DNA from: Bacillus sp. es.036
GTDB taxonomy: Bacteria > Bacillota > Bacilli > Bacillales > Guptibacillaceae
DNA length: 64,000 bases
Assembly (NCBI RefSeq): GCF_002563635.1
Contig: NZ_PDIZ01000001.1
Location: 2,790,001 to 2,854,000 of the forward strand
Direction: 5' to 3'
Part shown: piece after piece, positions 2,588-49,988 of the stretch
Numbering within the stretch: the stretch's first letter is position 1
How the letters are laid out: every line of letters starts with the position of its first letter
Translations under genes and position numbers: made by a program
Notes under the pieces: generated by a model
The model's database searches: none
What the model saw: only the letters and a program-made list of their open reading frames with translations
Told to the model about the DNA's origin: nothing

Positions 2588-3340
2588 GTCGGTGACTCCC
2601 TTAGGAGTTGAACCTCTTTTAGTCTCACGAGAACCTTATTAATCGATAAAGAACTGTCTTACATGGTTGAATGATCTTCATTAGTCTAGTGGCGATCCCT
2701 CCATGTGAATTAGACATTTCATTGGTACTGTGCCACCACTTTCACTGATATTAAGGTAAGTTATACAGTTGTTATTCTCACAATTGTTTTCCTTATCACC
2801 ATTTCATCGGAAGCAAGTCCTCCACGTTATCAGCTTACAACGTTGAATTATATCTATTATAGAAAGAAGTTAGGTGCTTCCTGTAAGCCTGTTAGTCGTT
2901 CATGCGCCTTTAACACACCGTGGACTTTCATATTTACGAGTTTTACTCATCCACTACTAACCTCACTCTTGGTGATATACACATTTCTATGTATTGCAGT
3001 TATAGACCTGTACCTTCAGAAGTTCGTCAGCTTAACCTCTATTCTTATAGGTTATACGCATTCTCACCATGTTCTTTCAACCCAAGCATTATGATTCACA
3101 CCACCCCCGCAGGTAGGTTTTCGTCAGCCGATCCTGTTACGGTGAATTCTCACGCCTTTTCATCGAGCTTATAACACTCTTATCCTTGCTAATTCAAGTG
3201 CTATTCGACTAAGAGAGAGCCCTTCAAGACGTTACGCTATCATTTGACTCTTCGATATAATCCTTCAGTTCTGTAAAGAACTGTCTAACTTTTACCTGAG
3301 TAATGTGACCATTCTCAGTTTAATTAGAAACGTTTCGCAC

Positions 3341-19061: not shown

Positions 19062-19295
19062 AACGACAAGTTAGACGTGCACATCCGTGCACATTTCCGA
19101 TGCCATCTCTCACCCTCAATCCCCGAAGAATAGAAACGTTTTTGAGTACACGGCAGGTCTACTGGCTTGTGCTTCGTCCTCGGCAAACCTTCCCAGATTA
19201 TTCTCCAGTGGTTTCTTGCCTCGTCCACACGACAGTTGCGGGGACAGCTCCGGATTCAGACCGGATTCCCTTTTAAGTCGTTCTACGACACCGCA
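19062..19295 (-). ncRNA. Cobalamin riboswitch
   Basis: The minus strand shows the B12-box core GAGCTGTCCCCGCAACTG, the preceding GGGAATCCGGTCTGAATCC, and the AAGCCAGTAGACCTGCC motif in the expected order, followed by a terminator and nrdA. Adenosylcobalamin binding should switch off class I reductase. Short frames on either strand here are not genes. Confidence 0.93.
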
Positions 19296-19323
19296 TACTC
19301 AACTATTTAATTATTTAAGATTT

Positions 19324-49780: not shown

Positions 49781-49950
49781 AAATAACTCCTCTTTTGAAA
49801 AAACTATAGCATATATGCTCTTAACAAGAATGTTCCATTGACGAAATCAAGTGACAATCATATCCATTGAGTATGCTGTAAGAAAAATAATAGTTGTTTT
49901 ACGTTCCCCCAAAAAAGGAAAGCATCGATATAATAAGACAACTATTACAT

Positions 49951-49988
49951 AGGAGGTGAACCCTTACAACTCTGTAAGGGCCTTATTG
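49951..49988 (+). promoter_or_regulatory. Shine-Dalgarno separated from start by a perfect hairpin
   Basis: AGGAGGTG (49951-49958) is 27 nt before the TTG start at 49986. Between them lies a perfect 8-bp stem CCCTTACA / TGTAAGGG (49961-49968 and 49973-49980) with loop ACTC. If the hairpin forms, the effective spacing shrinks to 7 nt (AA plus CCTTA), the ideal value. No other start codon with a ribosome site exists. Confidence 0.65.

Follow-up and report, generated by a model that had tools for sequence, protein, structure and literature searches.

A hairpin between the Shine-Dalgarno sequence and the start codon of mpfA-family genes is conserved in Bacilli and probably forms a split ribosome-binding site

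Introduction

RNA thermometers are hairpins at translation starts that hold the Shine-Dalgarno sequence (SD) or the start codon in a stem melting within the growth range. Split ribosome-binding sites were demonstrated in phage T4 and are conserved among close phages (Nivinskas 1999, Malys and Nivinskas 2009, as related in the review PMC3014915); in that review's account of T4 genes 25 and 38, a hairpin between the SD and the start cuts the spacing from 27 and 22 nt to 11 and 5 nt, respectively. The extended SD motifs described for Staphylococcus aureus pair over a long stretch towards the start codon, and UUG is given there as 9.1% of annotated starts (PMC13009471). Gene finders and expression models assume an SD and a short linear spacer at bacterial starts.

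The MpfA gene family has been linked to Mg2+ tolerance (PMC5122736, PMC6711546). Here we describe an element consisting of an SD, a hairpin and a TTG start codon ahead of an mpfA-family gene in a stretch of DNA of 64 kb (the window), together with the corresponding leaders of relatives. The element offers a handle on the translation control of a presumed magnesium exporter.

Results

The element in the window

A first-pass annotation of the sequence had proposed that a hairpin bridges an SD and a distant TTG start codon of mpfA. The SD, the perfect 8-bp stem with its 4-nt loop (49961-49980) and the TTG were all found where the annotation had placed them, and the features are as follows.

49929 to 49934, + strand: candidate -10 box TATAAT, picked out by eye and putative
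49951 to 49959, + strand: extended SD AGGAGGTGA, from the sequence and from SD pairing across leaders
49951 to 49956, + strand: AGGAGG core of the SD (AGGAGGTG spans 49951-49958)
49957 to 49960, + strand: 5' linker TGAA, from AGGAGG to the stem, its TG shared with the extended SD
49961 to 49968, + strand: hairpin 5' arm CCCTTACA, which pairs with the 3' arm
49969 to 49972, + strand: hairpin loop ACTC
49973 to 49980, + strand: hairpin 3' arm TGTAAGGG, from pairing and from covariation among relatives
49981 to 49985, + strand: 3' linker CCTTA
49986 to 49988, + strand: TTG start codon
49986 to 51272, + strand: mpfA-family gene, with CNNM, CBS and CorC_HlyC domains by Pfam

The spacing from AGGAGGTG to the TTG was confirmed as 27 nt, or 7 nt once the 20-nt hairpin is left out. 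The combination of GGAGG, a stem of at least 7 bp, a start codon and a 50-codon open frame was found at only 1 place on the two strands of the window and 0 times in 60 dinucleotide-shuffled windows. The bare fold of the 40-nt piece was moderately unusual (z -2.0), with 6 of 200 shuffles folding equally well. The hairpin has a predicted energy of -10.1 kcal/mol, with a minimum free energy (MFE) that reaches zero at 96 °C, and the MFE fold adds a weak pairing outside the main stem, absent from the first-pass annotation, between GAGG of the SD and CCUU adjoining the start codon.

A promoter scan of the window leader found no promoter; boxes resembling TATAAT were seen by eye 16-24 nt upstream of the SD in several same-genus leaders. 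There is also an inverted repeat, TAATAGTTGTTTTA/TAAGACAACTATTA, which pairs window positions 49888-49901 with 49934-49947, ends just 5' of the SD and overlaps the candidate -10 box; by eye, it was seen in L001, L003, L004 and L005 only.

The protein encoded from the TTG matched PF01595 (E 3.5e-58), PF00571 (in two stretches) and PF03471, all above cut-off, and thus has the CNNM domain, the CBS pair and the CorC_HlyC domain of the MpfA/CNNM family. Its relatives in the PDB include CorC and CorB-type proteins, and it scored 207 bits against the NCBIfam equivalog PaeA, under the cut-off of 500 for that model. By analogy with work on S. aureus and Bacillus subtilis, the window protein would export Mg2+. 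A second family gene in the same genome (G000:C1:176249-177451, L002) encodes a protein 30% identical to it and, by eye, has no such hairpin in its leader.

Conservation and spacing of the leaders

The element was present in 13 further species of the genus. It was found that the outer 7 bp of the stem were identical in 14/14 same-genus genomes, and that the inner 6 nt occurred as 8 different sequences among these 14. The element itself averaged 0.90 identity within the genus; the corresponding means were 0.80 across the first 90 coding bases past the start and 0.55 across the 100 upstream bases. The same element was also found in Alkalihalobacillus sp. CinArs1 (L172), a named relative, and the window probably comes from that genus.

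When the protein was searched against 150 order genomes, 124 had a match at E 1e-80 or better, among the matches listed. The 160 leaders that were read comprise 14 from the genus, 1 from a second genus in its family (L026) and 145 from elsewhere in the order; they share ancestry, and counts across them are therefore not independent. The comparison of leaders in relatives, which the first-pass annotation had put forward as a check, bore out the proposed layout: SD, hairpin (-7 kcal/mol or better) and start followed one another in that order in 134/160 mpfA-family leaders, and the letters of the stems had diverged. Between lineages the stem letters are almost wholly different, as in the window (CCCTTACA/TGTAAGGG) compared to L026 (CTCTGC/GCAGAG). 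A good SD thus stands too far from the start for initiation, at 27 nt in the window and with at least 20 nt between the two in 141/160 leaders. Distinct long spacers folded better than their own shuffles (p ≤ 0.05) in 115 of 130 cases, with mean energies of -13.0 versus -5.4 kcal/mol.

The spacing was evaluated in the 123 distinct leaders with a hairpin. The unfolded distance after AGGAGG ranged from 25 to 55 nt (sd 5.47) and the hairpin length from 12 to 44 nt, whereas the folded spacing had a median of 11 nt, an interquartile range of 10-11 and an sd of 1.64, with 90% of the leaders within 9-13 nt. The folded spacing was not correlated with hairpin length (r -0.01). In contrast, shuffled spacers that were folded alike gave an sd of 6.1 (5.3 in the lowest of 40 rounds), 32% within 9-13 nt and r -0.72. 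In our view, this constant folded spacing indicates more strongly than any other result that the hairpin probably works in its folded form. In B. subtilis, yields were reported to rise up to a spacing of 7-9 nt and then to stay level as far as 12 nt, the maximum tested in that work (PMC7392706), and therefore folded distances of some 7-11 nt should be usable.

The 5' linker had a median of 4 nt (4-6 nt between the 5th and 95th percentiles) and the 3' linker a median of 6 nt (5-8 nt). The predicted duplex of the distal SD with the anti-SD, whose letters were taken from general knowledge, had a median of -14.5 kcal/mol. The possibility that the 3' linker sequesters the SD was rejected, as pairing with the SD was weaker for the real 3' linkers than for shuffled ones (-2.15 versus -2.93 kcal/mol, Wilcoxon p 5e-8); such pairing seems to be selected against.

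Covariation of the stem

In alignment A4 (11 short-form leaders, one register), 94.3% of cells were paired, compared to 60.7% after shuffling and at most 45.5% after sliding. In alignment A5 (10 long-form leaders) the value was 79.2%, compared to 64.1% and at most 65.0%, respectively. Alignment A7 (62 leaders) gave 93.9% paired versus 63.8% shuffled, and 144 cells with a double change versus 39.9; these leaders were aligned by model R1, so that A7 is fitted to the structure, and were drawn from 67 sources selected for their good scores in an initial search of 100. Of the five measures of pair counts, two were weak: further pair types were not clearly above shuffles in A5 (386/500) or A4 (311/500), nor were pairs with a double change in A7 (240/500). 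The aligned letters nevertheless indicate that the stems have diverged with strong covariation. Together with the constant folded spacing, this supports the proposal that the hairpin bridges the SD and the TTG, and that structure brings the spacing into a usable range.

The start codon

The start codon was TTG in 132 of the 160 leaders, ATG in 24 and GTG in 4. The TTG that the first-pass annotation had taken as the start of mpfA is therefore a conserved start, in agreement with RefSeq, in which three plasmid copies from Priestia start at the TTG 3' of the hairpin. A GTG at 49956, which overlaps the SD, shares the frame of the TTG and gives an open frame in the window (438-aa ORF). It was rejected as the true start because such a GTG is in frame and open in just 24/123 hairpin leaders and so is not a conserved start.

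Among distinct leaders, the two-by-two counts of TTG against hairpin were 113 and 7, and 10 and 16 (Fisher p 9e-10, descent ignored). A link between the two traits was not established on the protein tree (177 proteins, 160 with both traits), which gave 6 supported independent pairs with a median sign-test p of 0.25, on average 3.4 of them in the same direction and 0.1 in the opposite one. The rule used to class leaders on this tree seeks the hairpin first, which favours the hairpin class and leaves 17/177 unresolved; it was adopted because an earlier automatic rule had, in several leaders, mistaken the AAGG of the 3' arm for a canonical SD. On the tree, at least 9 changes of the hairpin state are required. 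Family members with ordinary sites exist, such as L027 and L028, which have an ATG 5 nt after GGGAGG.

Specificity and range of the element

On the genome of the window, model R1 gave one strong match, which was this element (55.1 bits); the runner-up, at 22.4 bits, resembles a terminator hairpin when judged by eye. Covariance model R2 found 74 places at E 0.1 in the 150 order genomes, 71 of them before mpfA-family genes: 58 lay directly before mpfA genes already listed, and the other 16 consisted of 13 before mpfA-family genes and 3 that were not. With model R3, a match was found at E 0.01 in 141 of 398 genomes of the class; strict filters in such large searches drop weak matches, so that a genome without a match does not necessarily lack the element. 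Among the R3 matches listed, 25/25 high-scoring places were before mpfA-family genes, with L322 assigned by an N-terminal match only and L328 by its second alignment, as were 19/20 lower-scoring places among those listed.

Searching 249 genomes of the phylum gave 12 with a match, and the 7 outside the class were not before mpfA. At 80 named loci, 35 had a match, 34 of them in the leader of the gene by which the locus was fetched; these matches include Staphylococcus, Planococcus, Lysinibacillus, Paenibacillus, Shouchella and Carnobacterium, and 0/14 loci outside Bacilli were matched. L203, L209, L212, L224 and L226 have a second match located downstream of the fetched gene or farther away, which suggests tandem mpfA-type genes there, each with its own element. 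The SD-hairpin-start layout was also seen before mpfA-type genes on plasmids of Priestia and Sporosarcina (L344, L345, L346 and L349) and in 5/6 plasmid records altogether, the copy without it being L348 of Pontibacillus.

Hairpins between an SD and a start were also encountered before other genes. In one family outside the class, yidC has SD, hairpin and TTG in L335 (G616) and L337 (G578); the L337 protein is named YidC by NCBIfam TIGR03592, and that of L335 was recognised by eye. L351 (G201) has an SD, a 9-bp GC-rich stem and the TTG of a gene that by eye is transaldolase-like, a candidate split site before an unrelated gene. In L336 (G746) and L338 (G644), both with weak scores, a hairpin lies between the SD and the ATG of frames that by eye resemble a peptidase and a glycogen phosphorylase, respectively.

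Rfam gave 3 matches in the window, none at the element, and 0 in the loci of 33 relatives. The window matches lie on the minus strand at 19135-19310 (cobalamin riboswitch), 3073-3268 and 632-716, a list that includes two group II intron pieces. The best weak match on the window leader had E 0.22, and no Rfam family, the M-box included, reached its gathering score. No title or abstract describing this element was found in a literature search that covered mostly papers outside subscription. The principle is already known from T4; the new part is a class-wide chromosomal family with UUG.

Discussion

The leaders of mpfA-family genes share a conserved architecture with covarying stems and a constant folded spacing. 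We consider it probable, at roughly 0.78, that this is a conserved split ribosome-binding site of Bacilli in which the folded hairpin is the initiation-competent state; the folded state would, judging from the compared leaders, be needed for translation. In the mechanism that we propose, the 16S rRNA of the 30S subunit would pair with AGGAGGTGA as a long SD, the hairpin would remain folded and be extruded, shortening the path between the SD and the TTG, and the TTG would thereby reach the P site. Two features count against this split site, namely the partial pairing in silico of the SD and the start codon (with 40 nt of context, median probability of being unpaired 0.34 and 0.43, respectively) and the occurrence of SD-like letters close to the start. 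A hairpin of this kind may be tolerated in Bacilli because these bacteria have no E. coli-like ribosome-bound S1, the absence of which has been discussed for S. aureus (PMC13009471).

The conservation raises the question of why the hairpin is not simply deleted. In our opinion the likeliest reason for keeping it is that it holds the output of the exporter, which would be harmful in excess, at a modest or controlled level. A tentative extension of the split-site model is that the folded hairpin is needed and that a factor in trans sets the output, be it a DEAD-box helicase, an RNA-binding protein that reads shape, or Mg2+-dependent behaviour of the 30S subunit at UUG. This would fit the retention of the hairpin even though its loss by a short deletion would give a canonical site. 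In S. aureus, mpfA mRNA was reported to be up in a cshB helicase deletion, an effect that the authors of that study called possibly indirect (PMC5122736). Initiation strength also appears to matter in that species, as changing the GUG start of the paralogue mpfB to AUG relieved the Mg2+ sensitivity of an mpfA deletion, the start codon limiting mpfB output (PMC6711546). However, the stem has no conserved sequence for a protein to read, one paralogue in Staphylococcus (L246) is preceded by an ordinary site, and the S. aureus hairpin may belong to either mpfA or mpfB. Therefore, the CshB link may not concern the hairpin and is a lead only. Put more broadly, and as something we hold possible but would not bet on, SD, hairpin and UUG may together act as a gate, conserved in Bacilli, that controls Mg2+ export at the level of translation. 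Initiation would take place on the folded RNA only, and a helicase or Mg2+-dependent behaviour of the 30S subunit would set the output by acting on the fold or on initiation at UUG; split sites would then be an overlooked recurrent mode of starting translation in Bacillota, used also singly before yidC and other genes.

It is unlikely that the true SD is instead the AAGG of the 3' arm, hidden by a repressing hairpin, with the distal AGGAGGTG serving as a standby site or hairpin opener. A proximal SD is possible in many leaders because 91/123 carry an SD-like tetramer within the last 20 nt, the median proximal duplex being -6.0 kcal/mol; the window itself has AAGGG 5 nt upstream of the TTG. However, 32/123 leaders have no such tetramer, the distal duplex is the stronger in 123/123, and L075, L084, L087 and L169 have, by eye, a purine-rich 5' arm and a pyrimidine-rich 3' arm. 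Such a hidden SD also does not predict the constant folded spacing.

The first-pass annotation had further read the hairpin as a built-in switch, its stem melting at low Mg2+ or high temperature so that translation of mpfA stops. In its favour, the element is almost specific to a gene family tied to Mg2+ tolerance (PMC5122736, PMC6711546). This part of the annotation was not supported, and we consider such a switch improbable, since in 123/123 hairpins the MFE is predicted to stay below zero until 71 °C or higher (median 87 °C), the energies referring to 1 M NaCl and the melting argument being quantitative only to a few kcal/mol. Mg2+ may nevertheless act by another route. Between relatives the hairpin energy at 37 °C ranges from -5.8 to -19.8 kcal/mol, unlike a tuned sensor. 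That the hairpin, an inverted repeat lying 3' of a likely promoter, is a DNA palindrome (operator) or a transcription terminator is the least credible reading of all, as no T run or terminator-like site was found at the element, and the stem letters vary freely at a fixed position between SD and start, whereas an operator would keep its sequence.

The split site that we favour can be set beside the known systems. Like an RNA thermometer, the hairpin is located at a translation start; unlike one, it stands between the SD and the start in a stem that leaves the SD outside, it is expected to be ON when folded, and its predicted melting lies at 71 °C or above. With the M-box riboswitch of B. subtilis mgtE (PMC8844918, PMC6711546) it has in common a leader RNA ahead of an Mg2+ transport gene, but the window has no M-box match, the hairpin between SD and start is simple, and the gene is of the exporter type. 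The extended SDs of S. aureus are likewise long and UUG is common there; the main text of that paper (PMC13009471), however, mentions a hairpin or stem-loop 0 times.

The closest likeness is to T4 genes 25 and 38 (PMC3014915), where, as in the window, a hairpin makes an overlong distance between SD and start usable. Unlike these phage genes, the mpfA gene is chromosomal, its start is mostly UUG and its SD is long, and the layout spans an order and beyond with stems that have freely diverged. Retention of a structured spacer together with a weak start codon throughout a class-wide gene family would point to long-lasting selection on folded spacers in chromosomes, beyond T4.
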